DNA from: Roseobacter sp.
GTDB taxonomy: Bacteria; Pseudomonadota; Alphaproteobacteria; Rhodobacterales; Rhodobacteraceae
NCBI GenBank assembly: GCA_011050655.1
Contig: DRFG01000133.1
Span: forward strand, 1 to 45,664
Direction: 5' to 3'
Length of the DNA: 45,664 bases
The stretch's first letter is position 1; each line of letters starts with the position of its first letter. Of the stretch, positions 1 through 40,460 are shown one piece after another. The notes under the pieces were generated by a model. That model was given only the letters and a program-made list of their open reading frames with translations, was not told the origin of the DNA and made no database searches. Both the position numbers and the translations under genes were made by a program.

Positions 1-145
1 AAAGGTGGCCTGTGTCGCGCTGCAATCCATCCGCGAATTCAGCGGGCGTTTGGCGGGCGTAGGGTAATCGCTTGAGGGGATGTCGGTGACGGCACAGGTG
101 ATCCCCGCCTGAGCAAAGATCGCGCGGGCGAAATCAGCCCAGCTA
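1..145. repeat. Terminal direct repeat, left copy (circular overlap)
   Basis: Bases 1-145 are identical to 45520-45664. The repeat lies inside rmlD, and joining the ends through one copy restores an intact rmlD frame. This is what a circular molecule cut open with a duplicated overlap looks like, so I read it as terminal redundancy rather than a biological repeat. The circular unit would be 45,519 bp. Confidence 0.93.
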
Positions 146-14122: not shown

Positions 14123-14237
14123 CTTTATGTCCTTTGCCTGTTGGCAGACCCTGCATCTTTCGTGCTGGCCCCTGCCCTGATCACTGCTCAATGTTCCCTT
14201 TTTGGGAATCGTGGTTTTAGTAACACCACCCTAAAAG

Positions 14238-14246: not shown

Positions 14247-14286
14247 ACGGTTGTCCATCACTCAGCCTCGCACTGGCCTATTTTGA

Positions 14287-14581: not shown

Positions 14582-14595
14582 AAGCGGATTTCCCC

Positions 14596-15981: not shown

Positions 15982-16027
15982 CCCCACCCGCCTCACCATC
16001 GTACCGCTCAAAAGAGAGGATAAAGAC

Positions 16028-18548: not shown

Positions 18549-18560
18549 GGAGCATGTCTT

Positions 18561-18838: not shown

Positions 18839-18841
18839 AAC

Positions 18842-20358: not shown

Positions 20359-20361
20359 ATT

Positions 20362-22721: not shown

Positions 22722-22748
22722 CATATTCGTATAAACAAGGTGACAAAT

Positions 22749-24888: not shown

Positions 24889-26048
24889 GCCGCAAGATTG
24901 CCATCTTCACGGGGACGCGTGCAGAATATGGCCTGCTGCATTGGTTGATGCGCGATGTTCAGAACGACCCTGATCTGACGTTGCAAGTTATCGTAGGAGC
25001 CATGCATTTATCTCCTGAATTTGGCCAAACTTGGAAAGAGATCGCCGCCGATGGATTTTCTATCGACGCTAAAGTCGAGATGCTCCTGTCCTCTGATACG
25101 GCAGTAGGAGTAGCAAAATCCATGGGCTTAGGTGTTTTAGCCTTCGCCGATGCTCTGGACCGACTTTCACCAGATATGTTGGTTGTGTTGGGGGATCGAT
25201 TTGAGGCTTTGGCAATCGTTCAAACTGCAATGGTTCTTCGCATACCCGTTGCTCATATTCACGGGGGAGAAGTGACGGAAGGAGCTTACGATGATGCCAT
25301 TCGACATGCTATCACTAAGATGGCCAGCCTGCATTTTGTGGCGGCTGAGCCGTATGCCCGCCGAGTGATTCAGATGGGAACGCCCCCTGAAAGAGTGTTC
25401 AACGTGGGGGCCGTTGGCCTCGATCAAATTAAACGAGAAGAGGCGATTGATCGCACAGCTCTATCAGCTGAACTTGGCTTTGATTTGGTCCGTCCTTATG
25501 TTTTGGTAACATATCATCCGGTAACAGCCGGTGCTGAAGATCCCGTAAAAACCACTGAAGCATTACTGAATGCTCTGGATACCATTCCAGACCATCAAGT
25601 TATCTTAACCTTTCCTAATGCGGATAATGGAGGGCGCGCGATAATTCCGCTTTTAAAAGCCTACGCTGCTCGCGACAGTGCCCGAGTACTGGCTTTGCCA
25701 TCTTTGGGTTTTAGACGCTACAAAGCTGCAATGGCCGGGGTCTCGGCTGTGATTGGCAATTCTTCAAGCGGCATAATCGAAGCACCATCGTTTCGTGTGC
25801 CAACAGTCAACATAGGTGTCCGTCAGCATGGCCGGTTAGCAGCATCTTCCGTGCTTAACTGTGCCGCCGACGAACACTCCATTACAGAAACGATTAAGAA
25901 AGCTCTTTCTGCCGACGTACAGATATCTGCCCAGGGCACCGTAAATCCGTATGGAGCCGGAGATGCCACGCGACAGATCATCGCCGCGCTCAAAGCCAAC
26001 CTAGGACCTTTCCCTCAAACTTTCTATGACCTGGAGGCTGTTCTATGA
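24885..26048 (+). CDS. legG: Hydrolysing NDP-diacetamido-sugar 2-epimerase LegG (NeuC-like)
   Basis: A 387-residue GT-B-fold enzyme of the hydrolysing UDP-GlcNAc 2-epimerase family. It inverts carbon 2 of the 2,4-diacetamido sugar and releases the nucleotide, giving the 6-deoxy-mannose analogue used by the synthase. FTGTRAEYGLL at 8-18, GDRFEAL at 103-109, HIHGGEVTEGAYDD at 124-137 and the GNSSSGIIEAP segment near the end are family landmarks. The start overlaps legC and the end overlaps legI, both by ATGA, so the proteins are likely made in fixed ratio. Confidence 0.94.
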   Translation: MSRKIAIFTGTRAEYGLLHWLMRDVQNDPDLTLQVIVGAMHLSPEFGQTWKEIAADGFSIDAKVEMLLSSDTAVGVAKSMGLGVLAFADALDRLSPDMLVVLGDRFEALAIVQTAMVLRIPVAHIHGGEVTEGAYDDAIRHAITKMASLHFVAAEPYARRVIQMGTPPERVFNVGAVGLDQIKREEAIDRTALSAELGFDLVRPYVLVTYHPVTAGAEDPVKTTEALLNALDTIPDHQVILTFPNADNGGRAIIPLLKAYAARDSARVLALPSLGFRRYKAAMAGVSAVIGNSSSGIIEAPSFRVPTVNIGVRQHGRLAASSVLNCAADEHSITETIKKALSADVQISAQGTVNPYGAGDATRQIIAALKANLGPFPQTFYDLEAVL

Positions 26049-27133
26049 TCCATCCTGATCCATCCTATACATACATCATAGCCGAAGCAGGCGTGAACCA
26101 TAACGGATCGCGCGACTTGGCGTTTGAGTTGATTGATGCTGCTGCAGATGCGGGCGCAGACGCGGTAAAATTCCAAACTTTTAGCGCAAAAAGACTGGCG
26201 AGCAAGTCTGCCCCCAAGGCGGCTTATCAAATGATAACGACTGATGCACAGGAGAGCCAATATGAAATGCTCTCACGTTTGGAGCTCCCTCTTGAGTGGC
26301 ACGCGCCGTTACAAGAGTACGCGCGTACACGGAAAATAGAATTCATATCCACGGCTTTTGATGTTGATAGCTTGAACTTTTTAACCAGCCTAAATATCCC
26401 CTTTTTCAAGGTACCTTCCGGCGAGATAACCAATGGGCCTCTGCTGTGGCAGTTTGCCAAGGCAGGTAAGCCGTTGGTCGTCTCGACTGGCATGGCCACT
26501 TTGTCAGAGGTGGAACAAGGGCTGGCTGTAATCTCTCATGCATTGTCCAACCCTAAAGAACCTAATGACATGACAGAAGTCTGGAAGAACTGGAGCGATG
26601 CTAAAAGCCGTGCACGGTTGGACAGACACGTTAGCCTCCTGCATTGTACATCGCAGTACCCAACGCCCTTTCAAGCAGCCAACCTGCGGGCGATGGATAC
26701 CTTGCGGGATGCGTTCGGACTAGAGGTCGGATATTCTGATCATACTCAAGGTATTTTGATGCCGGTTGTTGCTGTCGCCAGAGGGGCACGGGTCATTGAG
26801 AAGCACTTTACACTTGATCGTAGCTTACCTGGCCCAGATCATCAGGCCTCACTAGAGCCAAGTGAATTGACACAGATGGTTTCAGATATCCGATCTATAC
26901 AAATTTGCCTCGGTACGGGGTATAAATCCCCTCAGCTTAACGAATGGGACACGAGACAGGCTGCCCGTCAACATGTGGCTGCGGTATGCGATATGCCAGC
27001 AGGACATGTGTTTACACGAGATGATTTAACGACAGCGCGTTTGGGTCAAGGTTTGTCGCCTACGGAGCTATGGCGCTTAGTGGGGCGTCCGGCGACACGA
27101 TCATATGTTGCAGGTGAGGCGATTCTTGAGTGA
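26045..27133 (+). CDS. legI: Legionaminic acid synthase LegI (NeuB family)
   Basis: Condenses the C6 sugar with phosphoenolpyruvate to make the nine-carbon legionaminic acid. The 362-residue protein has the NeuB TIM barrel (EAGVNHNG at 14-21, KFQTF at 42-46, VGYSDHTQG, EKHFTLDRSLPGPDH) and a C-terminal antifreeze-like SAF domain (MPAGHVFTRDDL ... ARLGQGLSP). The neighbours LegB, LegC and LegG indicate legionaminic rather than sialic acid, because sialic acid needs no dehydratase or aminotransferase. Pseudaminic acid is less likely since its pathway starts with an inverting dehydratase and uses a PseG hydrolase, neither of which is adjacent. Confidence 0.94.
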   Translation: MIHPDPSYTYIIAEAGVNHNGSRDLAFELIDAAADAGADAVKFQTFSAKRLASKSAPKAAYQMITTDAQESQYEMLSRLELPLEWHAPLQEYARTRKIEFISTAFDVDSLNFLTSLNIPFFKVPSGEITNGPLLWQFAKAGKPLVVSTGMATLSEVEQGLAVISHALSNPKEPNDMTEVWKNWSDAKSRARLDRHVSLLHCTSQYPTPFQAANLRAMDTLRDAFGLEVGYSDHTQGILMPVVAVARGARVIEKHFTLDRSLPGPDHQASLEPSELTQMVSDIRSIQICLGTGYKSPQLNEWDTRQAARQHVAAVCDMPAGHVFTRDDLTTARLGQGLSPTELWRLVGRPATRSYVAGEAILE

Positions 27134-27783
27134 AGGATGACAAAATATATGTGCTCTTGGGCGCTGGTGGACATGCCAAAGTAGTTTTAAGTCTCCATCA
27201 GGCAGCCGGCTTGAAGCTTGTGGGTGTATGTGACCCCAAGTTGGTAAGTGCGGGTGCGCTTACTTGGCAGGGTAATGATGTTTTGGGGGGGGACGAGGCT
27301 CTTGCCGTATTAGACCCAACACAGACACGGCTCCTGAACGGGATTGGCATAATGCCAAATCAAGATTTACGAGGCCGCCTGCAAGCGCACTGGGAAGCGC
27401 GTGGCTTTATTTTTCCCGTTTGCGTTCACCCTACTGCGTGGGTAGCACCTGATGCCGTGTTGGGAAGCGGTGTACAGGTTATGGCGGGTGCAGTGATACA
27501 GCCTGGCTGCACGATCGGAGCAGGAACGATTATCAATACAAGAGCTTGCGTTGACCACGACAGTAAGATCGGTAAACAGGTGCACATTGCTCCAGGGGCT
27601 ACATTGTGTGGTGATGTTACTATAGGAGATGGAGCTTTTATTGGCGCTGGCGCAACCGTGGTCAACGGGCGTGAAATTGGGGCACGGGCATTTATCGCGG
27701 CCGGTGCTGTGCAAGTTGATGATGCAGGTGAAAACGAGCGATCCTTTGGGCTTTACACGTTACGGAAAAGGGTGTCGCAATGA
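27130..27783 (+). CDS. legH: Legionaminic acid-pathway N-acetyltransferase LegH (PglD/NeuD-like)
   Basis: A 217-residue acyltransferase with a small N-terminal nucleotide-sugar domain (GAGGHAK at 11-17) and a C-terminal left-handed beta-helix of hexapeptide repeats. The candidate catalytic base is His143 in ACVDHDSKIG. It should acetylate the 4-amino group left by LegC. PglD, NeuD and LegH are close relatives and only the cluster separates them: with the other leg genes around it, LegH is the natural role. Start is GTG overlapping the legI stop (GTGA); the end overlaps ptmE. Confidence 0.88.
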   Translation: MKDDKIYVLLGAGGHAKVVLSLHQAAGLKLVGVCDPKLVSAGALTWQGNDVLGGDEALAVLDPTQTRLLNGIGIMPNQDLRGRLQAHWEARGFIFPVCVHPTAWVAPDAVLGSGVQVMAGAVIQPGCTIGAGTIINTRACVDHDSKIGKQVHIAPGATLCGDVTIGDGAFIGAGATVVNGREIGARAFIAAGAVQVDDAGENERSFGLYTLRKRVSQ

Positions 27784-28838
27784 AGCGAGGTTATGAGATG
27801 GAGTGGACTGAGACCTTGATGCCTGCCACGGCAACCTTGCGTGATGCCATTGCTAATTTGGATCACTCTGGTTTGCGGATCGTTTTGGTTGCTGGCGCAG
27901 ATAAGCAATTGCTTGGCACTGTTACCGATGGTGACCTCCGAAGAGCATTGCTCCGCGGAGATAACCTGGAAACGCTTATATCAAGCATAATGTTTAAAAA
28001 TCCTTTGGTGGTAAACGTCGATATGGATTACGATAGTGTTCTCAATCTTATGGGAATAAACAAGATCCATCAGTTGCCAGTGGTGGATTCTCAGAACCGT
28101 CTGATAGGCCTGCATATCTGGGATGAAATGCTCGCCCCTGAACTCCATGATAACACAGTCTTGATCATGGCTGGCGGCTTCGGCAAGCGAATGCGCCCTC
28201 ATACAGAAAATTGCCCAAAGCCAATGCTCAAGGTGGGTGGAAAACCAATGCTTGAGCATATTATTAGACGTGCGGCCGCAGAAGGGTTTCGCAAATTTGT
28301 AATTTCTCTATTTTATCTGCCCGACGTTATCACCGATTATTTCGGGGATGGCTCTAAGTTTAATGTGGAGATTAGCTATATAAAAGAAACGTCCCCATTA
28401 GGCACAGCGGGGGCTGTTTCACTGATAGAAAAAAGGCCAGAAATACCCTTCATAGTGACAAATGGCGATGTCATGACAAATATTCGCCTGAGCGAATTAT
28501 TGGACTTTCATAAAACACATCAAGCGACCGCCACAATGGCTGTGCGTCAACATGAATGGCAGCATCCTTTCGGCGTAGTGAAGACAGCTGGAATTATGAT
28601 CAATGGCTTTGAGGAAAAACCCGTTTATCGGTCTCATGTCAACGCAGGCATCTATGTGTTGGACCCAATCGCTCTGGATCATTTGGTAGTAGATCAGGTT
28701 TGTAATATGCCTACTTTATTTGAGCGTTTAAAAAACGGAGGCTTTGCCACAATTGCCTATCCGATGCACGAAGCGTGGATGGATGTAGGCAGGCCCGAGG
28801 ATTTAGCCAGCGCTAATAGAGATATTTCTCAGTCATGA
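27780..28838 (+). CDS. ptmE: CBS-domain sugar-1-phosphate guanylyltransferase (PtmE-like)
   Basis: Residues about 1-120 form a pair of CBS domains, and 127-352 a nucleotidyltransferase with the signature MAGGFGKRMRPHT and CPKPML near 130-150. In Campylobacter jejuni the enzyme with this plan, PtmE, makes GDP-glucosamine and so commits the legionaminic pathway to GDP- rather than UDP-sugars. A complete leg set around it suggests the same here. The companion PtmF and PtmA genes are absent, so glucosamine-1-phosphate must come from the host. CBS domains usually bind nucleotides, hinting at feedback control. ATG 27780 overlaps legH; ATG 27798, preceded by GAGG, is an alternative. Confidence 0.85.
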   Translation: MKRGYEMEWTETLMPATATLRDAIANLDHSGLRIVLVAGADKQLLGTVTDGDLRRALLRGDNLETLISSIMFKNPLVVNVDMDYDSVLNLMGINKIHQLPVVDSQNRLIGLHIWDEMLAPELHDNTVLIMAGGFGKRMRPHTENCPKPMLKVGGKPMLEHIIRRAAAEGFRKFVISLFYLPDVITDYFGDGSKFNVEISYIKETSPLGTAGAVSLIEKRPEIPFIVTNGDVMTNIRLSELLDFHKTHQATATMAVRQHEWQHPFGVVKTAGIMINGFEEKPVYRSHVNAGIYVLDPIALDHLVVDQVCNMPTLFERLKNGGFATIAYPMHEAWMDVGRPEDLASANRDISQS

Positions 28839-29548
28839 GCCATTCTGATACGAACTTGTCGAAAGTAACGGATCCGACTGTTCTTGCAATCATTCCGGCT
28901 CGCGGCGGATCGAAAGGTTTACCACGTAAAAATGTATTAGATATGGCTGGGAAACCTTTGATTGCCTGGACTATCGAGGCGGCGATGAAGGCAAATTGTG
29001 TTACGCGCACGATTATTAGCACTGATAGTGATGAGATCGAGAGCGTAGCACGGGCTGCAGGAGCGGATGTGCCATTCCGCAGGCCTGACGCTCTTGCGTC
29101 GGATACAGCAACATCATTGGATGTTGCTCTTCACGCAATTGAAAGTATTGATGAAGTTTACGACTACATTGTTCTTCTCCAACCTACGTCACCGCTCCGT
29201 ACTGCAGCCCATATAGATGCTGCTTTTGAGCTGTTGCGTGCACGCAATGCTCCGTCATGTGTTTCAGTTTGCGAAGTAGCGCAATCGCCTTATCTCATGG
29301 TTCAGTTCGGGGGTGGAGATCAGATTGTCCCAGTGCTATCTACCGAAAATAGAAGCCTCCGAAGGCAAGATTTGCCGCCTACGTACGAACTAAACGGAGC
29401 AATTTATATGACCACACCGGATGCTTTGCGGAATTTCCGGAAATTTATAACTGACGAAACGGTCGGCTTGATTATGCCCCGCCATTTATCTGGCGATATT
29501 GACACCTGTGCGGATTTTGAAGCCGTGCAGAAATACCTGATTGAATGA
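28835..29548 (+). CDS. legF: CMP-legionaminic acid synthetase LegF
   Basis: Transfers CMP from CTP to the nonulosonic acid, making the activated donor. The 237-residue protein has the cytidylyltransferase signature PARGGSKGLPRKN at 21-33, then QPTSPLRTA and RQDLPPTYELNGAIY, all typical of the NeuA/LegF/PseF family. It completes the leg pathway begun at 22749. The ATG overlaps ptmE's stop. The acetamidino triad begins nine bases downstream, so amidation could be part of making this same sugar. Confidence 0.93.
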   Translation: MSHSDTNLSKVTDPTVLAIIPARGGSKGLPRKNVLDMAGKPLIAWTIEAAMKANCVTRTIISTDSDEIESVARAAGADVPFRRPDALASDTATSLDVALHAIESIDEVYDYIVLLQPTSPLRTAAHIDAAFELLRARNAPSCVSVCEVAQSPYLMVQFGGGDQIVPVLSTENRSLRRQDLPPTYELNGAIYMTTPDALRNFRKFITDETVGLIMPRHLSGDIDTCADFEAVQKYLIE

Positions 29549-29556
29549 GGACTCCT

Positions 29557-30870
29557 ATGCAAAAATATCCTAGCCGTCGTGAAATAGATTTTTCAGCATT
29601 CGAAAAAGATGACAACTTGGGCGCTCGATATGGGTTGCCGACCAATGTCGAGTTTTGTTCAAAATGCATCATTTCAAATCAGCGACCAAATTCTGCAGTT
29701 GAATACGCACACACTAAAGATAGTAAAAAGAAGACTATCCATTTTGATGAGAAAAATGTGTGCGATGCCTGTAAAGTTTCAGAGCAAAAGCATGCTACAA
29801 TTGATTGGGATGAGCGCGAGCGTGAATTGCGTGCTCTCTGCGATAAGCATCGTAGTAAAGATGGGAGCTATGATTGTGTTGTTCCGGGATCCGGAGGGAA
29901 AGATAGTTTTTACGCAGCTCACAAGCTTAAATATGAATATGGAATGCACCCCCTGACAGTTACTTGGGCTCCGCATATCTATACAGATTGGGGTTGGAAG
30001 AACTTCCAATCTTGGCTGCATGCTGGTTTTGATAACTTTTTAATGACGCCTAATGGCCGTATTCACCGACTTGTTACACGGCTAGCAGTGGAAAATCTTT
30101 TTCACCCGTTTCAGCCGTTTATGTTTGGCCAAAAATCGCTAGCCCCTAAAATGGCTATTCTTCACAAAATCCCACTCGTTTTTTATGGCGAGAATGAAGC
30201 AGAGTATGGCAACCCTATTGAAGACACTCAATCGGCTCGCCGCGATTGGTCTTACTTTACGTCTGATGATAAGTCTAAAATCCATTTAGGTGGAACATCT
30301 TTAGCTGATTTAGATGAACACTTTGGTGTTGATGAAAGTGAACTACAACCTTATCTACCTGCAAATCCAGATCAAATTACAGATAATAACATTGAGGTAC
30401 ACTATTTAGGCTATTACATGAAATGGCATCCGCAGAGCTGCTATTATTATTCTGTCGAGAACGGTGGTTTTGAAGCGTCTCCAGAAAGAACCCCTGGGAC
30501 TTATAGTAAGTATAACTCTATTGATGATCGCATTGATGATTTTCACTATTATACTACATTGACTAAATTTGGCATTGGTCGGGCTACCTATGATGCCGCT
30601 CAAGAAATTCGTTCAGGCGATATTGATCGCGATGAAGGCGTCGCTCTTGCGAAACGTTATGATGGCGAGTTTCCTGAACGATTTGCTGAGGAAATCTTTC
30701 AATATCTGAGCATACCAGAGAAAGAGTTTCCAAAAGCCAGTCAGATGTTTGAGCAGCCAATCATGGACCGAGCTTATTTTGATAACTTAACAGATTCGTT
30801 CCGGTCACCACATTTATGGAAATATGAAAACGGGCAGTGGTCTTTACGTCATGTTGTATGGGAGCGGTAA
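29557..30870 (+). CDS. N-acetyl sugar amidotransferase, first copy (WbpG/PseA-like)
   Basis: Predicted to activate an N-acetyl group with ATP and replace its oxygen with ammonia to give an acetamidino group. The 437-residue protein has a zinc-type set Cys34/Cys37 and Cys69/Cys72, then a PP-loop SGGKDS at 112-117 of the ATP-pyrophosphatase type. It works with the HisF- and HisH-like proteins encoded next, HisH supplying ammonia from glutamine. I chose ATG 29557, preceded by GAGGA, over ATG 29545. Position right after legF suggests legionaminic acid as substrate. It is longer and clearly different in sequence from the second copy at 35126. Confidence 0.88.
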   Translation: MQKYPSRREIDFSAFEKDDNLGARYGLPTNVEFCSKCIISNQRPNSAVEYAHTKDSKKKTIHFDEKNVCDACKVSEQKHATIDWDERERELRALCDKHRSKDGSYDCVVPGSGGKDSFYAAHKLKYEYGMHPLTVTWAPHIYTDWGWKNFQSWLHAGFDNFLMTPNGRIHRLVTRLAVENLFHPFQPFMFGQKSLAPKMAILHKIPLVFYGENEAEYGNPIEDTQSARRDWSYFTSDDKSKIHLGGTSLADLDEHFGVDESELQPYLPANPDQITDNNIEVHYLGYYMKWHPQSCYYYSVENGGFEASPERTPGTYSKYNSIDDRIDDFHYYTTLTKFGIGRATYDAAQEIRSGDIDRDEGVALAKRYDGEFPERFAEEIFQYLSIPEKEFPKASQMFEQPIMDRAYFDNLTDSFRSPHLWKYENGQWSLRHVVWER

Positions 30871-30874
30871 GCCT

Positions 30875-31639
30875 GTGATCAACAAGCGTCTGATTGCCAG
30901 ACTTGATATAAAAGGCCCTAATCTGATCAAAGGTATCCAACTTGAGGGGCTTCGTAAGTTGGGGGACCCACAGGTTTTTGCCGATCGTTATTATGCTCAA
31001 GGTGTCGATGAGCTGCTCTACATTGATATTGTTGCAAGTCTCTATGGCAGGTCAAAGCTCACAGAAATTGTGCGCCGAGCGGCGCGTGACGTTTTCGTGC
31101 CTATGACTGTTGGTGGAGGCGTGCGTACGGTAGATGACGTCAAAGAACTGCTGCGTGCGGGGGCGGACAAAGTGGCGATCAATACTGCCGCCGTGGCCCG
31201 TCCCGATCTTATAAGGGAGGTTGCTCAGCGGTTCGGCTCTCAATGCATGGTATTGTCTGTGGAAGCGAAGCAGCAGGCTCCAGGCCAATGGGAAGTCTAT
31301 ACCGACTGCGGACGGGAGCGCAGTGGATTGGACGTTATTGAGTGGGTTCAACGCGGTATTGAATTGGGTGCCGGAGAAATTTTGGTCACTTCAATTGACA
31401 AAGAGGGTTCTCGTAGCGGTTTTGACATTGGCCTGACGCGAGCAGTAGCCGCTGTGGCTGATGTACCAATTATTGCCAGTGGCGGATATGGAATACCATC
31501 ACACGTTAAAGATGTCGTGAATGTTGGTGCGGATGCCGTGGCTGTGGCTGATGCATTGCACTATAATCGAATTACGTTGCCCGCTCTACGCCAGTCAATG
31601 CGCGAGATGGATATTCCAGTCAGAAAGGTTAATGTCTGA
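30875..31639 (+). CDS. HisF-like ammonia-channelling subunit, first copy
   Basis: A 254-residue TIM-barrel protein of the HisF family. In histidine synthesis HisF uses Asp11 and Asp130 for catalysis. Here Asp11 is kept (IARLDIKG) but the Asp130 position is glutamate (VLSVEAKQ), and no other histidine genes are near. So it is probably the HisF2 type, passing ammonia from HisH to the sugar amidotransferase rather than making imidazole glycerol phosphate. GTG 30875 gives the standard family length; the open frame extends back to 30824 inside the preceding gene. Stop and next start share a base (TGATG). Confidence 0.87.
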   Translation: MINKRLIARLDIKGPNLIKGIQLEGLRKLGDPQVFADRYYAQGVDELLYIDIVASLYGRSKLTEIVRRAARDVFVPMTVGGGVRTVDDVKELLRAGADKVAINTAAVARPDLIREVAQRFGSQCMVLSVEAKQQAPGQWEVYTDCGRERSGLDVIEWVQRGIELGAGEILVTSIDKEGSRSGFDIGLTRAVAAVADVPIIASGGYGIPSHVKDVVNVGADAVAVADALHYNRITLPALRQSMREMDIPVRKVNV

Positions 31640-32277
31640 TGAAGGTCACCATCATTGATTATGGTATGGGCAATCTCTTTAGCGTTCAACGTGCGGTAGA
31701 GATCTGCGGGGTCACTAATATTACTTTGGGAACAACCCCAGATGATATAATTGGCGCAGATTGCCTTATTCTTCCAGGAGTGGGAGCGTTTAAGGACGGG
31801 ATGCAAGGTCTGAAAGCTGCGGGTTTAGTGGAGCCGATAAAAGCTTATTCAGGCTCAGGGAAACCCTTATTGGGCATTTGCCTGGGGGCGCAGATGCTTG
31901 CAACTACTGGTGAGGAATTCGGGACCCATGAAGGGCTCGATCTGATCAGCGGTAGGGTGACCAAAATACCTGCTCAGGCAGGAGAGTTTACTCAGAAACT
32001 ACCGTTTATCGGATGGACACCTTTAAGCGCACCGCGGACTAATGGATTTGCCGATACTGCATTACAACGCCTTAATTCGGAAGAATCTGTTTATCTTGTC
32101 CACTCCTTTCATTTGGAAGTAGCTGATTCCGCCGATCTATTAGCAACTTATGACTATGGTGGCGTACCTGTTACTGCTGCTATTCAACGGAAAAACGTTA
32201 CCGGAATGCAGTTTCATCCTGAGAAGAGTAGTGTTGTGGGCTTGCGTATCCTGTCAGATTTCTTAGCTCAAGTATGA
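31639..32277 (+). CDS. HisH-like glutamine amidotransferase, first copy
   Basis: A class I glutaminase of 212 residues that releases ammonia from glutamine. The nucleophile Cys81 is in GICLGAQML, and His193/Glu195 in FHPEKS complete the triad; DYGMGNL at 7-13 and PGVGAF at 46-51 are HisH landmarks. All catalytic residues are present. It should dock on the adjacent HisF-like barrel and feed the WbpG-like enzyme. The second HisH-like gene at 33760 differs considerably in sequence, so the two triads are not recent duplicates. Confidence 0.9.
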   Translation: MKVTIIDYGMGNLFSVQRAVEICGVTNITLGTTPDDIIGADCLILPGVGAFKDGMQGLKAAGLVEPIKAYSGSGKPLLGICLGAQMLATTGEEFGTHEGLDLISGRVTKIPAQAGEFTQKLPFIGWTPLSAPRTNGFADTALQRLNSEESVYLVHSFHLEVADSADLLATYDYGGVPVTAAIQRKNVTGMQFHPEKSSVVGLRILSDFLAQV

Positions 32278-32314
32278 TAGTCCTACAGATATCACAGTGG
32301 AAAGCTTTACAGTG

Positions 32315-33760
32315 ATGTCATTGACTTCAGATACTATAAGGTTTGGCCATATATCGGATATGGAGCGTGTTCTACAAGTAGAAGATGATCCGCGATTAGC
32401 CAATATGGTTTGCCCAGAGACAGATATGCTACTCTGGCCTATGGTGAGGACTCCCTTTCTTCGATTGATCTTATCCGATCTTCTATACGAAACACCAATC
32501 CCGACAGGGCGGGGGGCAGGGCGTATAGATCAGATTCAGGGGTTGGTACAAGCGGAGCTACACAATAAATTTAAAGGCAAAATGCGTGGCGAAATAACTA
32601 TTCGAGCCTCTGCAATTGGTAGCAATACTAAAGAAGGCCTATTGTTCAATAGGCTAAGTGACTACTTTGTAGATCAAGATCCACAAGGCACAGTCGTACT
32701 GGAGGATTTGGGTGGTAGGGTTATGCCGCAGAACCGGTACAACTCTCGGGTGCTTTACCATGACCCAATATTGGTTCGTGCAACCATAGCCGCTCGGCTA
32801 AATGCAAAGCAACATTACCAGACTGCTACAGATCTTGTTGACCTACTCGAGACGCGCGCTAAATGCGAACTGGGGTGGACATTGTCAGCTGCTAATCGTG
32901 ATTGGTATTTAGCGCTTGTAGCACGCTACATTGCGAGGGCACCCCGCTTACTCTCTGGCTATAAAGCCTTGTTGCAGAAATTAGGGACCAAGCTGCTTAT
33001 CGCCGAGGAAGCTTGCTATGGTAATTCCATGGTTTGTTTGATAGCAGCAGCTCGTGAGTTGGGTATTCCATCAGCAGAATATCAACATGGTATGGTGTCA
33101 AGAGGCCATGACGCTTACGCTTTAGCTCCAACATTGGCCGCAAGCCCAGCATATAGAAAAATGCTCCCTGATTATTTTCTTGGGTATGGAAGATGGTGGA
33201 ATGCCCAATTAAAGGTTCCGGTGCTTCCCGTAGTAATAGGGAACCCTCATGGTGACGCGATGAGAGCCAATATCCATCACGGGACCAGCATAAAAACAGA
33301 TGTTTTGATTTTAGGCGATGGTATCGAAAGTGATACTTATATCAATTTTGCACAGAAACTTGCATCGCAGCTACCGAAACAACAGATCATTTTTCGTCCA
33401 CACCCGCAGGAACGCAGCTATTTTTCAAGCAAATACCGAACAGGCCAAATGGGTAGTGTCAAAATTGATCAAAATCCCGATATATACTCTAGTTTGAATG
33501 CGGCACATGCAGTGGTTAGCGAAATGTCGACCGGGCTATTTGAAGCAGTGGGGCTAGCCGATAGAGTTCTCATGTGGGCCACACCAAAGGCAAATTTTTA
33601 TCTCCCCTCACACCCGTTCGAAACATTCAGCGACGTTGAGGCTTTAGTGAAAGCACTGAGTGTGCCATGTACAAGGCCGCTTGAGTGGACGGTTGATGAT
33701 ATTTGGGCACCCAATTGGCAGGAAAATTACCGCTCCTTTATTCAAGAGGTTATACGCTGA
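32315..33760 (+). CDS. Putative GT-B-like glycosyltransferase, possible legionaminic acid transferase
   Basis: A 481-residue soluble protein that I cannot place in a named family. The C-terminal half looks like a GT-B nucleotide-sugar domain: AEYQHGMVSRG, a strand-turn LILGDGIESD, IIFRPHPQERS and SEMSTGLFEAVGL, the last two resembling the RPHP and S-x-S/T-G-x-x-E motifs of CMP-sugar and CDP-polyol transferases. It sits exactly between the two amidotransferase triads and ends by sharing a base with the next start (TGATG). A role in transferring the amidinated nonulosonic acid is attractive but inferred. ATG 32315 has GGAAAG upstream; GTG 32297 and GTG 32312 are alternatives. Confidence 0.6.
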   Translation: MSLTSDTIRFGHISDMERVLQVEDDPRLANMVCPETDMLLWPMVRTPFLRLILSDLLYETPIPTGRGAGRIDQIQGLVQAELHNKFKGKMRGEITIRASAIGSNTKEGLLFNRLSDYFVDQDPQGTVVLEDLGGRVMPQNRYNSRVLYHDPILVRATIAARLNAKQHYQTATDLVDLLETRAKCELGWTLSAANRDWYLALVARYIARAPRLLSGYKALLQKLGTKLLIAEEACYGNSMVCLIAAARELGIPSAEYQHGMVSRGHDAYALAPTLAASPAYRKMLPDYFLGYGRWWNAQLKVPVLPVVIGNPHGDAMRANIHHGTSIKTDVLILGDGIESDTYINFAQKLASQLPKQQIIFRPHPQERSYFSSKYRTGQMGSVKIDQNPDIYSSLNAAHAVVSEMSTGLFEAVGLADRVLMWATPKANFYLPSHPFETFSDVEALVKALSVPCTRPLEWTVDDIWAPNWQENYRSFIQEVIR

Positions 33761-34365
33761 TGATCACTGTTATTGACTATGGGATCGGTAATATTGGATC
33801 CATTTTGAATATGTTCCGCAAAATTGGGGCTCCCTGCCAGACGACCAAGGATCCTGATACAATTAGTCATGCAGAAAAACTTGTTTTACCAGGTGTTGGC
33901 TCTTTTGATGCAGGCATGCGTTCTCTCGTGGAAACTGGAATGGATAGAGCGATAATTAACGCCGCAAATAAAGATACTCCGTTGCTTGGAGTTTGTTTAG
34001 GGATGCAACTAATGACAAGGGGGAGTGCTGAAGGTACTCTATCAGGACTAAACTTAATATCTGGCCACTGTGTCAAGTTTGATTTAAAAAACCAAGGGTT
34101 ACGTGTACCACATATGGGATGGAACGTGGTTACTCCAACTGATACCGCCCGCCTGTTCAATCTCGATGAAGAAGAATTGCGTTATTACTTTGTACATAGT
34201 TACCACGTGGTCTGTGACGATGCCTCGGATATTGCTGCAGAAACAACATATGGATTAAAATTTACTTGTGCATTCCAGCACGGAAACATTTACGGTGCGC
34301 AATTTCATCCTGAAAAAAGCCATCGTTATGGGATGGATATGTTTCGCAAATTTGCAAAGGTTTGA
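33760..34365 (+). CDS. HisH-like glutamine amidotransferase, second copy
   Basis: A 201-residue class I glutaminase with Cys79 in GVCLGMQLM and His183/Glu185 in FHPEKS; DYGIGNIGS at 6-14 and PGVGSFDAGM complete the HisH pattern. ATG 33760 overlaps the previous stop (TGATG) and was preferred over a frame opening at 33703 within the preceding gene. It begins the second amidotransferase triad, here in the order HisH-HisF-WbpG, opposite to the first. Its partner HisF-like gene starts three bases after its stop. The best inferred substrate for this triad is the 2,3-diacetamido uronic acid of the Wbp pathway, as in Pseudomonas aeruginosa. Confidence 0.9.
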   Translation: MITVIDYGIGNIGSILNMFRKIGAPCQTTKDPDTISHAEKLVLPGVGSFDAGMRSLVETGMDRAIINAANKDTPLLGVCLGMQLMTRGSAEGTLSGLNLISGHCVKFDLKNQGLRVPHMGWNVVTPTDTARLFNLDEEELRYYFVHSYHVVCDDASDIAAETTYGLKFTCAFQHGNIYGAQFHPEKSHRYGMDMFRKFAKV

Positions 34366-34368
34366 TCA

Positions 34369-35133
34369 ATGCTGCGTACACGCGTCATTCCTACTCTGCT
34401 TCTCCAAGATGGTGGTTTGGTAAAGACAATAAACTTTGCCAAACCGAAATATGTGGGCGATCCTATTAATGCAGTTCGTATTTTCAATGAAAAGGAAGTA
34501 GACGAACTTATTCTGCTCGATATTACTGCCTCCCGCGAAGGCCGAGAGCCTGACTATGACTTGATCAATGATATTGTCAGCGAGGCTTTCATGCCCATTG
34601 GATATGGGGGAGGCGTGCGGACTGTATTGCAAGCACAGCGGTTAGTTTCTTTAGGATTAGAGAAAATTTCCTTTAACAGCACAGCACTAGACAGCTGGAC
34701 CGTGATTTCTGAGACCTCGGCAAGACTGGGATCGTCCAGTACTATGGTATCAATTGATGTTAACATGGATTGGCGGGGTCGGTATCGTCTTTACGACGCG
34801 CGTAAAAAGAAAAACCTGAAGCGAGATTTGATGGTTCACATTGTTGAAGCCGTCGCTGCGGGGGCAGGCGAGCTTTTCATCAATGATGTGAGCAGAGATG
34901 GAACGCGTAAAGGTTACAATATTGATTTAGTAGCTAAGATTTGCAGTGCCGTGGATATACCTGTAATTGTTTGCGGTGGGGCAGGCACATTAATGGATTT
35001 TAAGATAGCGGCAGATGCACAAGCGGCGGGTGTATCTGCAGGTAGTATGTTTGTATATATGGGAAAACATCAAGCAGTTATGATAAATTACCCTAGTCAC
35101 ATCCAACTCAAAGGCATTTTCGAAAATGAATGA
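34369..35133 (+). CDS. HisF-like ammonia-channelling subunit, second copy
   Basis: A 254-residue TIM barrel of the HisF family. The Asp11 position of true HisF is leucine (VIPTLLLQDGG), while Asp130 is kept (VSIDVNMDW), the reverse of the first copy. Loss of Asp11 should abolish cyclase activity, which fits a role limited to ammonia transfer. LDITASREGREPDY and YGGGVRT keep the barrel and phosphate-binding loops recognisable. The end overlaps the WbpG-like gene by eight bases. This is the HisF2/WbpG-associated type rather than a histidine gene. Confidence 0.88.
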   Translation: MLRTRVIPTLLLQDGGLVKTINFAKPKYVGDPINAVRIFNEKEVDELILLDITASREGREPDYDLINDIVSEAFMPIGYGGGVRTVLQAQRLVSLGLEKISFNSTALDSWTVISETSARLGSSSTMVSIDVNMDWRGRYRLYDARKKKNLKRDLMVHIVEAVAAGAGELFINDVSRDGTRKGYNIDLVAKICSAVDIPVIVCGGAGTLMDFKIAADAQAAGVSAGSMFVYMGKHQAVMINYPSHIQLKGIFENE

Positions 35134-36220
35134 TTATCAGATATGCACACGCTGCATTATGGATACCACCGACCCTGATATCACCTTTGACGACAATGGC
35201 ATCTGTAACCATTGTTATCGGTATGACAAGATAGCCTCGAAAAGGCTGATAGTTAACTCAGATCAACGCAAAGCTGCTTTGGACGAAGCCGTTGCTGAAA
35301 TGAAGCGGCAGGGAAAAGGTAAAAGCTACGACTGCATCATAGGTGTCTCTGGTGGCGTGGATAGTACTTATGTTGCTTATTTAACTAAAGAGCTAGGATT
35401 GCGCCCGCTGGCTGTTCACTTTGATAATGGATGGAACTCCGAATTAGCAGTGGCGAACATCGAGAAGACCCTTGATAGGCTTGGCATTGATCTAGAAACT
35501 TTTGTTGTAGACTGGCCTGAGTTTAGGGATCTACAACTCTCCTTTCTAAAAGCGTCCACACCGGATGGAGAAGTTCCTACAGATCACGCTATCGCAGCGC
35601 TACTTTATAAAGCAGCTCATAAATATGGGTTACAGTACATTTTAACTGGAGTTAATGTAATATCTGAAAGTATCATGCCAATACGTTGGGGGTATGGGTA
35701 TTCTGATATGCGCTATATAGGTGGGGTGCATAAAAAGTTTGGTACTAAAGCATTAAAAACCTATCCAAACTACTCGTTGCCGAAACTTTACTACTACACA
35801 AAAATTAGACACATAAAAATGTTTCCCATTCTTGATTATGTTACATATGAAAAAGAAGACGCAATGGAGTTGATCCAAAGCAAACTGGGTTGGATATATT
35901 ATGGAGGGAAACACTACGAAAGTATCTATACCAGATTTTATCAATCTCAGGTTTTAGTTGAAAAATTCAATATAGATAAGCGTAGAGCTCATAATTCAAA
36001 CCTTATTTTATCCGATCAAATAAGTCGAAGTGATGCGCTCGAGGTTTTGAAAGAACCTGTTTGCGCCTCTGATTTGGCTACATCAGACAGAACTTATGTG
36101 CTTAAGAAATTCGGTCTTTCTGATAATGAGTGGGGAGATTTAATGGGGCGAGAAGTTAAATATTTTACTGACTACCCAAATTCTCATGCATTAATTGAGA
36201 AAGCCAAAAAATATATTTAA
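35126..36220 (+). CDS. wbpG: N-acetyl sugar amidotransferase, second copy (WbpG-like)
   Basis: A 364-residue sugar amidotransferase. Cys7/Cys10 and Cys27/Cys30 form the zinc-type set, and SGGVDS at 75-80 is the PP-loop that adenylates the acetamido oxygen. Length and start (YQICTRCIMD) match classic WbpG, which with HisH2 and HisF2 makes the acetamidino group of P. aeruginosa O5-type O-antigen. Because the wbpA-B-D-E genes are on the same plasmid, this triad probably modifies that diacetamido uronic acid. The region from here to about 38.6 kb is the most AT-rich in the window. Confidence 0.9.
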   Translation: MNDYQICTRCIMDTTDPDITFDDNGICNHCYRYDKIASKRLIVNSDQRKAALDEAVAEMKRQGKGKSYDCIIGVSGGVDSTYVAYLTKELGLRPLAVHFDNGWNSELAVANIEKTLDRLGIDLETFVVDWPEFRDLQLSFLKASTPDGEVPTDHAIAALLYKAAHKYGLQYILTGVNVISESIMPIRWGYGYSDMRYIGGVHKKFGTKALKTYPNYSLPKLYYYTKIRHIKMFPILDYVTYEKEDAMELIQSKLGWIYYGGKHYESIYTRFYQSQVLVEKFNIDKRRAHNSNLILSDQISRSDALEVLKEPVCASDLATSDRTYVLKKFGLSDNEWGDLMGREVKYFTDYPNSHALIEKAKKYI

Positions 36221-36235: not shown

Positions 36236-37306
36236 ATGCATACAAGAAATATAATATCAAATGGCGTCCTTTGGCTGCTCTTTGGAGTACTGGGCTGCTT
36301 TGTTACTATAAGTTTTTTTGTATATGGGCTGCCCAGTTTGCGTGGTGAGTTGTCCGTTGCTTTATATGCGGATACTCACACCTATGAAGACGCAGCCACA
36401 GGACGAATCTATGTCCCTGAACTTATTTCAACAACCTCCAATCTTTTCGGACCAGTGTTGATTTTTGATGCTCTAGGACATAATAGAGTTGCTGTGTTTT
36501 TCTTTAATTTGGCTGTAGCCGCTGTGGGGATATATTACCTTACTACTCGCGAAAACATCATGCGAGTGCGATTGTTTTTTCTACTGTCTACCTCGTCAGT
36601 TTTTATTTTCAGCTTTTACGGTGTGAATAAAGAGATTTTAATTTTCACAGTTAGTATTATGGTTTACCTGTTTGTGAGGACAAATATATTTACGTACATA
36701 GCGGTTGCTCTGGTATTGTCCATATTCATACGCTGGCAAATGACTATTTTTTGTGTCCTTATTTTGATATTCTGGACTGTTCCAATTATTAAGAAGAACC
36801 GTAAATTCTCCATAATTGGACTTCTTGCATCATTTTCTCTAGTTATTGGTGATGGAACACAGGGCGCCTTGGCGCATGTGAATGAGGTCGCTGATCTTGG
36901 CTCTATTGCAGAAAGTGGGAGTGGCGCAAGTGGGTTGTTTTCATTAATGTTGGGCATTCAAAATAGTTACGGATATATCATTATATTTATACCAAAAACA
37001 GCAATGCTACTGTTTGGGCTGATTGCGCGGTTTGATTTGTCGAGAGTCGCTGACGACTTTTGGAATTACTTTGTCATCATGTTTCAATCGATTCAGAATC
37101 TTTTAGTCTTCGGATACCTTTTTATGAAAGGTAAGATTAGATTGGAGAACGATATATTCTTTATAATGATTATATATTGTGCATTGTTTTCAATTACACC
37201 AATATTCGGCCCCCGATACTTGTACCCAGTATCTATCTGGGCAATATTATCATGTTGTAAGATAGAAGATTTTCTTGTGCAGAATAAATCGTTAAAATCT
37301 GAATAG
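36236..37306 (+). CDS. Multi-pass membrane protein, probable polysaccharide polymerase (Wzy-like)
   Basis: A 356-residue hydrophobic protein with about nine or ten predicted membrane helices and a larger loop near residues 205-235. Wzy polymerases share little sequence, so the call rests on topology and place: the cluster has a Wzx flippase and an initiating transferase and needs one polymerase, and this is the only other polytopic protein. It could alternatively be a membrane acyl- or glycosyltransferase. ATG 36236 has only a distant AAGG upstream. AT-rich with rare codons, pointing to horizontal origin. Confidence 0.6.
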   Translation: MHTRNIISNGVLWLLFGVLGCFVTISFFVYGLPSLRGELSVALYADTHTYEDAATGRIYVPELISTTSNLFGPVLIFDALGHNRVAVFFFNLAVAAVGIYYLTTRENIMRVRLFFLLSTSSVFIFSFYGVNKEILIFTVSIMVYLFVRTNIFTYIAVALVLSIFIRWQMTIFCVLILIFWTVPIIKKNRKFSIIGLLASFSLVIGDGTQGALAHVNEVADLGSIAESGSGASGLFSLMLGIQNSYGYIIIFIPKTAMLLFGLIARFDLSRVADDFWNYFVIMFQSIQNLLVFGYLFMKGKIRLENDIFFIMIIYCALFSITPIFGPRYLYPVSIWAILSCCKIEDFLVQNKSLKSE

Positions 37307-37317: not shown

Positions 37318-38514
37318 TTGAAAGTTTTATACCTTAGCCCATTCATAGCCTTTGGCGGGGCAACGCGTAGCTTGGTAGAAGTCATGCGTGCAATGCCCTC
37401 AGATATTGTAGACAAGCACGCCATCGTTGCAAAAGGAGTAGTGGAAAAAGCTTGGTATCCGAAGGACACTACTCTAACAGAGGTCTCTGGACTGATGCAG
37501 TGGGATAACACTTGGTTCAGCCATTACCGCGGGCATCGGTGGCTTGTCCTGCTGCGTGAATTAGCAAGCTGGCGTACAAGTCGAAAAGTTTTACTTCAGG
37601 TGCAAGAGGCCGGTCCTTTTGATATTATTCACTGCAACGAAATTACGTTGTTGCCGACAGCTATTATGGCAAAAAAAATACTTGGGGCATCTCTTGTCGT
37701 ACACGTACGATCACTGCAGGCTGGACCACTTACTCCTCGTAGAACTAAGTGGATTACAAAGGCTCTTGCTCGCCATGCAGATGCGATTATTACTATTGAT
37801 GAGGCGGTTCAGCGAACCTTGGATCCCGATCTGCAGACGGATATAATTTATAATAGCATGCCAATCCCCGACGAAAGAGCCACAATATCTGATGATAGGA
37901 AACCTCTTACCTTTGGGATTATTGGCAGTCTATCGACTTCCAAAGCCGTATTGGAAACTGTCGAAGCCTGCATAGAGCTTAAACGTCGGCAAGTTCCTTT
38001 TCGTCTTTTGATAGCGGGAGAAAACGTACGGAAATTAACAGGTGTTAAAGGTTTTATTTTAAAATCATTCAATCTGGCTCGTGATATCGAACTAGAAGTT
38101 CAGGAAATGGTTAATACCCACCATATGGAAGACAATGTTCAGATGCTTGGCTTTGTATCTGACATCGGATCAGTCTACGACCAATTGGATGTCTTGTGTT
38201 TTCCATCTCACCTTGACGCGCCAGGCCGACCAGTATTCGAGGCCGCATTAATGGGGGTGCCGTCGATAGTTGCAATGAGAAACCCTACTAAAGACGTGAT
38301 TGAAAATGGTGTTACTGGTTTTGTAATAGATCATCCAGACCCAATTTTAATTGCAACCGCGATGGAAGCATTTCACGATAATCGTAGCCGGATGAAGAAG
38401 ATGGGCAGGGCTGCTAGAATGGCCGCAATTTCTCGATTTGATAGCAGTTGTGCTGCTGCGAAGATAATCAAAGTTTATAATAGAGCTTTACATCGTTCAG
38501 AGACCCACTTTTAG
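37318..38514 (+). CDS. Glycosyltransferase family 4
   Basis: A 398-residue GT-B enzyme. The N-terminus MKVLYLSPFIAFGGATRSL is the usual glycine-rich acceptor loop, and the donor domain carries LGFVSDIGSVYDQLDVLCFPSHLDAPGRPVFEAALMGVP, with the glutamate of FEAALMGVPSIVA where family 4 places its donor-binding Glu. It should add one sugar of the repeat at the inner face of the membrane; which sugar cannot be told from sequence. The start is TTG 37318, AGGG lies about ten bases upstream, and no ATG is nearby. It is followed by the first clear pause in the operon. Confidence 0.85.
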   Translation: MKVLYLSPFIAFGGATRSLVEVMRAMPSDIVDKHAIVAKGVVEKAWYPKDTTLTEVSGLMQWDNTWFSHYRGHRWLVLLRELASWRTSRKVLLQVQEAGPFDIIHCNEITLLPTAIMAKKILGASLVVHVRSLQAGPLTPRRTKWITKALARHADAIITIDEAVQRTLDPDLQTDIIYNSMPIPDERATISDDRKPLTFGIIGSLSTSKAVLETVEACIELKRRQVPFRLLIAGENVRKLTGVKGFILKSFNLARDIELEVQEMVNTHHMEDNVQMLGFVSDIGSVYDQLDVLCFPSHLDAPGRPVFEAALMGVPSIVAMRNPTKDVIENGVTGFVIDHPDPILIATAMEAFHDNRSRMKKMGRAARMAAISRFDSSCAAAKIIKVYNRALHRSETHF

Positions 38515-39449: not shown

Positions 39450-40460
39450 TTGTTCAAAAATAAGACACTCATGATTACCGGTGGTACCGGATCATTCGGA
39501 AACGCCGTCCTGAGTCGATTTATAACTTCTGACATTCGCGAAATCCGTATTTTTAGCCGGGACGAGAAAAAACAAGAAGACATGCGCATTGCGCTTAACA
39601 GTGACAAGCTGAAATTCTATATCGGGGATGTGCGCGATTATGACAGCGTGAGCCAAGCGATGTCAGGTGTGGATTACGTCTATCATGCCGCTGCGCTAAA
39701 ACAGGTCCCTTCTTGTGAATTCTACCCGATGCAAGCAGTCAAAACCAATGTGCTTGGTGCAGAAAACGTTATGCGCGCAGCACAAGCTGCTGGGGTGAAA
39801 CGAGTGGTGGTGCTTAGTACTGACAAGGCTGTTTACCCGATCAATGCCATGGGTATATCCAAAGCGATGATGGAAAAATTAATGGTGGCCCAAGCACGGA
39901 TGGCACGAGAAGGAGAGACTGTTTTTTGTGCAACCCGTTATGGGAATGTTATGGCATCGCGAGGCTCTGTCATCCCTCTTTTTGTTGACCAGATCAAAGC
40001 CGGGAAAGCTTTGACACTCACAGATCCGAAAATGACCCGATTTTTGATGTCGCTGGAAGATTCCGTGGACTTGGTTTTGCATGCGTTTGAACATGCCGAA
40101 CAAGGGGATATTTTTGTGCAAAAAGCGCCAGCCTGTACCGTTGAATCTCTCGCAACTGCTCTGCAGGAACTTTTCGGTGCCGAGACTGGCCTGAAAATCA
40201 TTGGTACCAGACACGGAGAGAAGCTTTACGAGACATTGCTTTCTCGTGACGAAATGGCGAAAGCAAAAGAAACTGACCGTTATTATCACGTCCCCATGGA
40301 CGCGCGAGACCTGAACTATGCTAAATATTTTGTTGACGGAGAGGAGCATGTCTCTGTGTTCAATGACTATACTTCTCATAATACCGAGCAATTAGATGTG
40401 GCAGGTGTCAAGAAGCTCTTGATGACACTTAGCTTCATTAAGGAGCATATAAATGCTTAA
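39450..40460 (+). CDS. qnlA: UDP-GlcNAc 4,6-dehydratase/5-epimerase (QnlA/WbjB/CapE-like)
   Basis: A 336-residue soluble SDR enzyme that converts UDP-GlcNAc to the 4-keto-6-deoxy sugar and inverts carbon 5, entering the L-sugar series. MITGGTGSFGNAVL covers the NADP loop; STDKAVYPINAMGISK contains the Ser, Met and Lys of this family's active site. The AAALKQVPSCE stretch is typical of CapE/WbjB. TTG 39450 is preceded by AAGGAA at good spacing. It overlaps the next gene by eight bases. Product goes to the reductase upstream and the 2-epimerase downstream. Confidence 0.88.
   Translation: MFKNKTLMITGGTGSFGNAVLSRFITSDIREIRIFSRDEKKQEDMRIALNSDKLKFYIGDVRDYDSVSQAMSGVDYVYHAAALKQVPSCEFYPMQAVKTNVLGAENVMRAAQAAGVKRVVVLSTDKAVYPINAMGISKAMMEKLMVAQARMAREGETVFCATRYGNVMASRGSVIPLFVDQIKAGKALTLTDPKMTRFLMSLEDSVDLVLHAFEHAEQGDIFVQKAPACTVESLATALQELFGAETGLKIIGTRHGEKLYETLLSRDEMAKAKETDRYYHVPMDARDLNYAKYFVDGEEHVSVFNDYTSHNTEQLDVAGVKKLLMTLSFIKEHINA

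Follow-up and report, generated by a model that had tools for sequence, protein, structure and literature searches.

Three described routes to acetamidino sugars provide the closest comparison for the locus analyzed here: the LpNASAT/PtmG route of Legionella and Campylobacter, in which the Legionella gene is a homologue of ptmG and ptmG makes CMP-Leg5Am7Ac (PMC3766260), the WbuX/LfnA L-FucNAm system of E. coli O145 and P. aeruginosa O12, and the WbpG-HisH2-HisF2 system for ManNAc3NAmA of P. aeruginosa O5. Roseobacter plasmids of the RepA-I type are comparable as carriers, since one with a complete rhamnose operon is described as dominated by polysaccharide genes (PMC4148953), and deletion of a plasmid-borne rhamnose operon reduced attachment in a roseobacter (PMC11481893). 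The window, i.e. the entire 45,664-nucleotide contig DRFG01000133.1 of Roseobacter sp. (GCA_011050655.1), carries two triads, each consisting of a WbuX-type N-acetyl sugar amidotransferase with a HisF-like and a HisH-like partner. The seven genes in the order WbuX-HisF-HisH, GT-B-like protein, HisH-HisF-WbuX were all found on the plus strand with open frames, just as the first-pass annotation had described. We estimate at about 50% the probability that this plasmid directs the synthesis of a single Wzx/Wzy-type polysaccharide containing two different amidino sugars, by the complete scheme outlined below; the gene content of the plasmid suggests that the surface sugar coat probably holds two kinds of amidino sugars.

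Two amidotransferase triads of different type

Both amidotransferases, WbuX1 and WbuX2, exceed the TIGR03573 cut-off of 203.2 bits (scores in Table 1) and contain an intact PP-loop (SGGxDS, as SGGKDS/SGGVDS) as well as two CxxC pairs each (tetracysteine). HisH1 and HisH2 score above the TIGR01855 cut-off of 105.4 bits and retain the GxCLG and QFHPE motifs, and HisF1 lies slightly under the cut-offs for HisF (276.8 of 294.55) and WbuZ (267.4 of 299.7). All frames are open and neither the WbuX nor the HisH proteins have lost their motifs, which makes it highly improbable that one or both triads are silent or inactive. In each triad the HisH-like protein would release ammonia from glutamine, the HisF-like protein would channel it, and the WbuX-type PP-loop ATP pyrophosphatase would use it to convert an N-acetyl into an acetamidino group on the sugar. 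The earlier length of 437 residues for WbuX1 begins at the fifth codon and the first ATG gives 441 residues; HisH2 most likely starts at 33757, giving 202 residues.

Pairwise identities within the window are low (WbuX1/WbuX2 30% over 124 residues, HisF1/HisF2 27%, HisH1/HisH2 38%). In a 74-row tree comprising every type-2 (WbuX2-side) row and a sample of type-1 (WbuX1-side) rows, a 100/100 branch separated WbuX1 from WbuX2, which are therefore not recent paralogues. The phylogeny proposed in the first-pass annotation as a check for such clustering thus upholds, among the sampled relatives, its claim that the triads differ in type, and a tandem duplication of one triad can be ruled out by this branch and the low identities. 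NeuB was present within 11 kb in 21 of the 32 rows on the WbuX1 side, and on the other side that label alone applied to 5 of 42. No further TIGR03573 match was detected in the genome beyond the window pair at E <= 0.001. Elsewhere, type-1 triads follow the WbuX-HisF-HisH order in 17 of 71 cases (WbuX-HisH-HisF is commoner, with 28) and type-2 triads the HisH-HisF-WbuX order in 52 of 79, in a tally that counts a few HisH/HisF pairs with two amidotransferases. Since each order occurs elsewhere in its own triad type, the mirror arrangement requires no inversion, which was dropped as an unnecessary source.

The HisF-like proteins were compared at the two cyclase aspartates, which we take to be residues 11 and 130 in T. 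maritima HisF numbering. HisF1 has Asp at the first and Glu at the second position, HisF2 has Leu and Asp, and the genome's own histidine-pathway HisF, encoded with HisA on a separate contig (C158), has both aspartates. As HisF1 and HisF2 each lack one of the pair, neither is a histidine cyclase, and a role of the triads in histidine biosynthesis was ruled out. The same holds broadly in our survey, where, of the HisF proteins encoded next to an amidotransferase, 2 of 69 in the type-1 group and none of 88 in the type-2 group had both aspartates (2 of 157 in total). The Asp/Glu form was present in 25 of the 31 HisF proteins beside amidotransferases scoring at least 300 bits against WbuX1 (LpNASAT-like), and the Leu/Asp form in 26 of the 38 that accompany type-1 enzymes of lower score and in 84 of the 88 that accompany type-2 enzymes.

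Triad 1 directly follows a legionaminic acid operon in which LegB, LegC, NeuC, NeuB and NeuD exceed their cut-offs; the CMP transferase and a protein that we take to be PtmE-like remain under theirs. The first start codon of legC overlaps legB, and the ATG at 23722 is the likelier start. WbuX1 aligns with LpNASAT (PDB 8wex) at 798 bits over residues 5-438 (434 residues), including the stretch between the CxxC pairs that is reported to be absent from other family members (PMC10607449). The LpNASAT match, the ptmG homology and the Leg operon directly upstream make for a strong assignment, so that the earlier placement of this triad with legionaminic acid stands: triad 1 likely converts CMP-Leg5Ac7Ac to CMP-Leg5Am7Ac. 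It differs from the LpNASAT/PtmG route in being half of a two-triad plasmid locus with its own adjoining HisF and HisH.

Sugar substrate of the second triad

A WbuX2-led alignment scan of named genomes, of which the best 79 loci of a longer list were analyzed, provided 36 best new rows that together with 13 older ones formed a 49-row tree. In this tree WbuX2 grouped with the enzymes of Rubrivivax rivuli and Nitrococcus mobilis (97/91); in the 74-row tree its nearest rows had been G845 (G and L numbers are our labels for genomes and loci) and Massilia, and the newer grouping came with the wider scan. The R. rivuli and Nitrococcus loci share with the window a GT-B-like gene, HisH, HisF, the amidotransferase, a membrane protein in the place of Wzy, a GT4 glycosyltransferase, QnlA, FnlA or an FnlA-like protein (47% identity in Nitrococcus) and an epimerase, in nearly the same order and with qnlA-fnlA-epimerase downstream of the triad-2 gene. 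R. rivuli, the nearest in identity to WbuX2 (65-66%), carries fnlA/qnlA, and searches of its genome were negative for WbpB at 1e-10 and for WlbA at 1e-25; a second triad, whose amidotransferase is WbuX1-like (31%), is also present. Nitrococcus has Leg-type genes and gave no WbuX1-like match at 1e-15. Upstream of its locus (NZ_CH672427.1), which lacks a triad 1, a WlbA-like gene with one in-frame stop was noted.

In the window, genes for an FnlA-like dehydratase, a 4-reductase and a 2-epimerase lie about 2-5 kb downstream of WbuX2, and the uronic acid genes about 14 kb upstream. The four best-scoring relatives (61-66% identity to WbuX2) all carry fnlA. No FnlB-type reductase was found in the window; its reductase is of the QnlA type, which points to L-QuiNAc or L-RhaNAc. 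In Proteus O antigens fnlA-qnlAB accompanies QuiNAc and fnlABC accompanies FucNAc (PMC5560731), and published structures combine 2,3-diamino-glucuronic acid, an amidinated L-sugar and D-QuiNAc, examples being P. shigelloides O51 and structure 7, the latter given beside P. rubra and V. vulnificus (PMC3210612). On the basis of the sister proteins, the adjoining genes, the FnlC/QnlB-type epimerase and these structures, we favor the L-6-deoxyhexosamine of the adjacent genes as the triad 2 substrate, a choice to which we give even odds: UDP-L-QuiNAc or UDP-L-RhaNAc from FnlA, QnlA and the epimerase would be converted to its 2-acetamidino form, and the WbpABDE-like genes would supply an unamidinated diacetamido-glucuronic acid. 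An L-6-deoxyhexosamine as the probable substrate, and an amidotransferase with HisH and HisF beside fnlA-type genes, are also what likens triad 2 to the WbuX/LfnA system, from which it differs in its QnlA-type rather than FnlB-type reductase; our trees do not include the O145 and O12 sequences. WbuX2 may work like LfnA/WbuX without being an orthologue.

Several observations weigh against this substrate. WbuX2 falls outside the compact clade of WbuX-HisH-HisF triads beside fnlABC in the 74-row tree. Among 13 hand-chosen close relatives (12 for fnlA; the set leaves out four similarly scoring loci, L238, L243, L271 and the short-contig L234), 10 have WbpB/WlbA-like and WbpE-like genes no farther than about 25 kb from the triad-2 gene, and fnlA is linked in five of the 12 searched, once at 47% identity. 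G845 and G1181, both 61% identical to WbuX2, are without fnlA (the best FnlA-like match in the G845 genome reaches only 35%, and a 43% match in G1180 was counted as a presumed other dehydratase), and the Massilia and Ramlibacter relatives (57%) have uronic acid genes and no fnlA. Automatic labels within +/-10 kb of the best 79 loci identified 10 as uronic-type and 4 as fnlA-type, with Nitrococcus under the fnlA threshold. A WbpE-like gene (58%) is present in R. rivuli on a separate contig, and the term QuiNAm returned only unrelated-word matches among the literature matches listed.

Much of this gene content would fit the first-pass annotation, which had paired triad 2 with the diacetamido uronic acid genes, and WbpABDE-like genes are indeed part of the locus (17253-21459). 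In that case triad 2 would produce GlcNAc3NAmA beside Leg5Am7Ac, in the D-gluco form because no WbpI-type epimerase is present. HisF2 belongs to the AglZ/HisF2 family, and a sugar of this kind is the substrate of P. aeruginosa O5 WbpG (PMC10607449); the WbpABDE-like genes and the HisF2 family are likewise the features shared with the O5 system. The locus departs from O5 in lacking a WbpI-type epimerase and in its nearest relatives, which lean elsewhere, and the trees do not include the O5 sequence. A genome search with the WbpI-type gene of L030 matched only the 2-epimerase of the window at E <= 1e-5; with this FnlC/QnlB-type enzyme as the only non-hydrolysing 2-epimerase detected, the D-manno product of O5 is unlikely, and ManNAc3NAmA was set aside as the second amidino sugar. 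The R. rivuli genome and the greater distance of the uronic genes from WbuX2 also speak against a uronic substrate. The earlier pairing is therefore doubtful, with the sisters and adjoining genes favoring the L-6-deoxyhexosamine and the wider gene content partly favoring the uronic acid, which we consider a serious second choice of lower probability.

It appears improbable that triad 2 modifies the initiating sugar, D-QuiNAc/D-FucNAc, or legionaminic acid at a second position. Dehydratase/reductase genes able to make D-QuiNAc/FucNAc are present in a number of loci, but no such amidinated sugar turned up in the literature searched, as far as its available portions go, and WbuX2 lies across the tree from the legionaminic type, with several relatives showing no nonulosonate marker in view.

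An Armatimonadetes contig of a metagenome-assembled genome (MAG; L234 and L104) encodes a triad-2 amidotransferase that hardly differs from the G845 enzyme (tree path about 0.05), reflecting either a recent transfer or a misbinned contig.

The plasmid, its glycan block and the central GT-B-like protein

The window is one entire contig of a 4.10-Mb genome, and its ends (1-145 and 45520-45664) overlap exactly over 145 bases. This overlap, the sole basis for circularity, makes a circular plasmid of about 45.5 kb the most likely form of the contig. Its RepA is 75% identical over about 90% of its length to a record annotated RepA-I and to the 65-kb plasmid of Phaeobacter inhibens DSM 17395, so that the plasmid nature claimed earlier was borne out by both the overlap and the replicase. 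Together with rmlA, rmlB and rmlC, assigned by family models, rmlD completes a rhamnose operon, and the likeness to the roseobacter RepA-I rhamnose plasmids thus extends to replicase type, rml operon and polysaccharide cargo. In contrast to those plasmids, positions 17253-42200 are nearly without a close DNA match: megablast against 72,556 plasmid records gave a single match of 328 bases there, whereas parts of 1-17200 resemble roseobacter plasmids at 74-81% identity among the matches listed. We infer from this difference that the glycan block (plus strand, 17253-44107) is an exchangeable cassette. A separate block at 3875-10787, about 80% identical to Sulfitobacter plasmids, encodes a radical SAM protein, a UdgX-type protein, an HWE histidine kinase, a PHB depolymerase and a C45 peptidase.

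According to the proposed scheme, the fusion of a short-chain dehydrogenase/reductase (SDR) with a sugar-phosphate transferase would start the unit on D-QuiNAc or D-FucNAc, and three transferases plus this one initiator would give four sugars per repeat. The rhamnose genes, also on the plasmid, would be compatible with two polymers, e.g. a polysaccharide and a glycoprotein or lipid, each served by one triad; this is unlikely in view of one Wzx and one Wzy-like gene in a single-strand gene run (17253-44107) and of three transferases and an initiator that fit one four-sugar unit.

The protein between the triads (GTB, 32297-33760) has no Pfam match and scores 27.4 bits against the 125 required by TIGR04396, a curated nonulosonate transferase family. 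Its AlphaFold model, built from an 11-row alignment (pLDDT 83.4, pTM 0.86), was loosely closest in Foldseek to UDP-GlcNAc 2-epimerases, glycosyltransferases and other GT-B-fold proteins, with a best E of 9e-9, query TM of 0.35-0.47 and a root-mean-square deviation of 6-13 A among the matches listed. Within the best 79 loci, nonulosonate markers accompanied 11 of the 17 with this family and none of the 62 without it (Fisher p = 1.4e-9), a statistic in which the loci are not independent and the GTB profile was partly built from proteins beside these triads. Flavobacterium ZT3R18, where the GTB gene lies without a nonulosonate marker in view and a WbuX1-like match is absent genome-wide, counts against a nonulosonate transferase. 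On balance this linkage makes that function, in an orphan family, slightly better than an even bet, and the family offers a concrete candidate for such a transferase. The association of the orphan family with nonulosonate genes extends to distant phyla.

The fullest version of the scheme, a repeat with Leg5Am7Ac and amidinated L-quinovosamine (or L-rhamnosamine) forming a zwitterionic attachment glycan, encoded by an exchangeable cassette with GTB as the nonulosonate transferase and representing a design that recurs across phyla, is tentative and appreciably less probable than its parts.

Table 1. Features assigned in the window, with coordinates, strand and basis of assignment
Feature	Position	Strand	Basis
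RmlD	1..852	-	identified by eye from translation
CapD/WbpM-like 4,6-dehydratase	10961..12841	-	PseB-model 182.5 bits over residues 282-566, under cut-off
Replication initiator RepA (RepA-I type)	13103..14191	-	Pfam PF10134, 331.6 bits
Nucleotide-sugar dehydrogenase, WbpA-like (diacetamido uronic acid branch)	17253..18548	+	TIGR03026, 417.5 bits
Gfo/Idh oxidoreductase, WbpB-like	18842..19789	+	weak family matches only; A-B-D-E order as in Limimaricola (L030)
Hexapeptide acyltransferase, WbpD-like	19786..20358	+	family matches; A-B-D-E order
Aminotransferase, WbpE-like	20362..21459	+	under cut-offs; 65-67% to Ramlibacter and Nitrococcus genes near their triad-2 gene
Wzx flippase	21462..22721	+	PF01943, 52.3 bits
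LegB 4,6-dehydratase	22740..23729	+	TIGR04180, 521 bits, cut-off 475
LegC aminotransferase	23647..24888	+	TIGR04181, 521.1 bits, cut-off 420
NeuC/LegG-type hydrolysing 2-epimerase	24885..26048	+	TIGR03568, 467.5 bits, over cut-off
NeuB/LegI-type synthase	26045..27133	+	TIGR03569, 447.8 bits, over cut-off
NeuD/LegH-type acetyltransferase	27130..27783	+	TIGR03570, 193.8 bits, over cut-off
PtmE-like CBS + nucleotidyltransferase	27780..28838	+	domain matches, all under cut-offs
CMP-nonulosonate cytidylyltransferase (LegF-like)	28835..29548	+	PseF, 176.2 bits, under cut-off 205.7
Triad 1 WbuX1, N-acetyl sugar amidotransferase (PtmG/LpNASAT type)	29545..30870	+	TIGR03573, 398.1 bits
Triad 1 HisF-like partner (HisF1)	30824..31639	+	first ATG; second in-frame ATG at 30851
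Triad 1 HisH-like glutaminase (HisH1)	31639..32277	+	TIGR01855, 176.7 bits; Cys/His/Glu motifs present
GT-B-like protein (GTB), candidate nonulosonate transferase	32297..33760	+	fold model; linkage to nonulosonate genes
Triad 2 HisH-like glutaminase (HisH2)	33757..34365	+	TIGR01855, 216.4 bits on longer reading from 33703; motifs
Triad 2 HisF-like partner (HisF2), AglZ/HisF2 family	34369..35133	+	NF038364, 324.5 bits, cut-off 310
Triad 2 WbuX2, N-acetyl sugar amidotransferase, other (hexose) side	35126..36220	+	TIGR03573, 277.5 bits
Putative Wzy-like membrane protein	36236..37306	+	position and hydrophobicity; no family match; same-place homologues in Nitrococcus (L251) and Flavobacterium ZT3R18 (L232)
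GT4 glycosyltransferase	37318..38514	+	adjoins triad 2 in several relatives
RmlD-like 4-reductase, QnlA-type, 288 residues	38572..39438	+	351 and 359 bits to fnlA-adjoining genes of R. rivuli (L230) and Nitrococcus (L251)
FnlA-like 4,6-dehydratase/5-epimerase	39450..40460	+	TIGR04130, 554.6 bits, under cut-off 730; 70% to Rubrivivax rivuli FnlA
Non-hydrolysing 2-epimerase, FnlC/QnlB type, not WbpI type	40453..41583	+	520 bits to FnlC, 571 to the R. rivuli gene, 151 to the WbpI-type gene of L030
GT4 glycosyltransferase, WcaI-like	41562..42809	+	NF007640, 65.6 bits, under cut-off 276
SDR reductase + initiating sugar-phosphate transferase fusion	42884..44107	+	PF01370, 53.4 bits; PF02397, 161 bits

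Occurrence of double triads and their significance

Genomes with a match over the TIGR03573 cut-off numbered 13 among 193 relatives, 78 among 385 members of the class, 41 among 398 from the phylum and 14 among 394 from the family, the last three surveys being even draws and the sets overlapping. Among the 134 loci analyzed (the window, 6 plasmid stretches and 127 genomic stretches), 20 have two or more WbuX genes and at least 8, the window included, have two complete triads. This count followed an adjacency rule with no HisA nearby, an earlier score-competition rule with the histidine-type HisF having given 4 of 134; both figures are lower bounds, as the family model yields 20 clustered pairs among the genomes, two of which (L107 and L120) were missed by role matching. 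Eight of the 13 hand-chosen close relatives carry a WbuX1-like gene (29-74% identity) no more than about 12 kb from their triad-2 gene. The eight double-triad loci include Alpha- and Betaproteobacteria, one Bacteroidetes MAG and one Anaerolineales MAG, and several are MAGs. G845, Rhizobiales AFS079129 (L277), G759 and the Azospirillum TSA2s plasmid p2 each carry one triad-1-like and one triad-2-side triad, both complete; such loci differ from the window in the hexose branch, which is FnlABC in L277 and G759 and is without a clear FnlA in G845. Double amidination loci are thus uncommon and recurrent, and the earlier expectation that two acetamidino systems on one plasmid would be unusual holds as to rarity and not as to uniqueness.

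The literature searched (mostly outside subscription journals, and available in part) yielded no published glycan with two amidino sugars and no description of a plasmid cassette that combines two different amidination systems. Each enzyme type is already known, and their pairing in such a cassette would be the new part. The O61 polysaccharide of Salmonella arizonae contains amidinated 8-epilegionaminic acid and possibly L-FucNAm, and if both are present a glycan with two amidino sugars would not be new chemistry. Acetamidino groups place positive charges on otherwise acidic surface glycans, and that of P. aeruginosa O12 was proposed by the authors as part of the cause of pH-dependent adhesion (PMC11637443). 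If the proposed structure is correct, one nonulosonic acid and one hexose would each carry a cationic amidine beside acidic groups, plasmids swapping in the doubly amidinated glycan would tie plasmid content to surface charge, and paired nonulosonate and hexose amidination would constitute an unrecognised glycan design that recurs across phyla. That distant lineages show the double-amidotransferase pattern raises the question why bacteria keep two amidination systems.

Other arrangements were encountered in the same surveys. L103, L112 and L115 have two type-2 amidotransferases with a single HisH and HisF, a different route to two amidination steps. WbuX-like stretches were also found inside very long frames of 1425-3000 residues (L021, L022 and G118:C119), and the plasmid matches in NZ_CP106737.1 and NZ_CP108680.1 fall in genes whose annotation reads non-ribosomal peptide synthetase or condensation-domain protein, suggesting that amidotransferase domains may occur in peptide synthetases.

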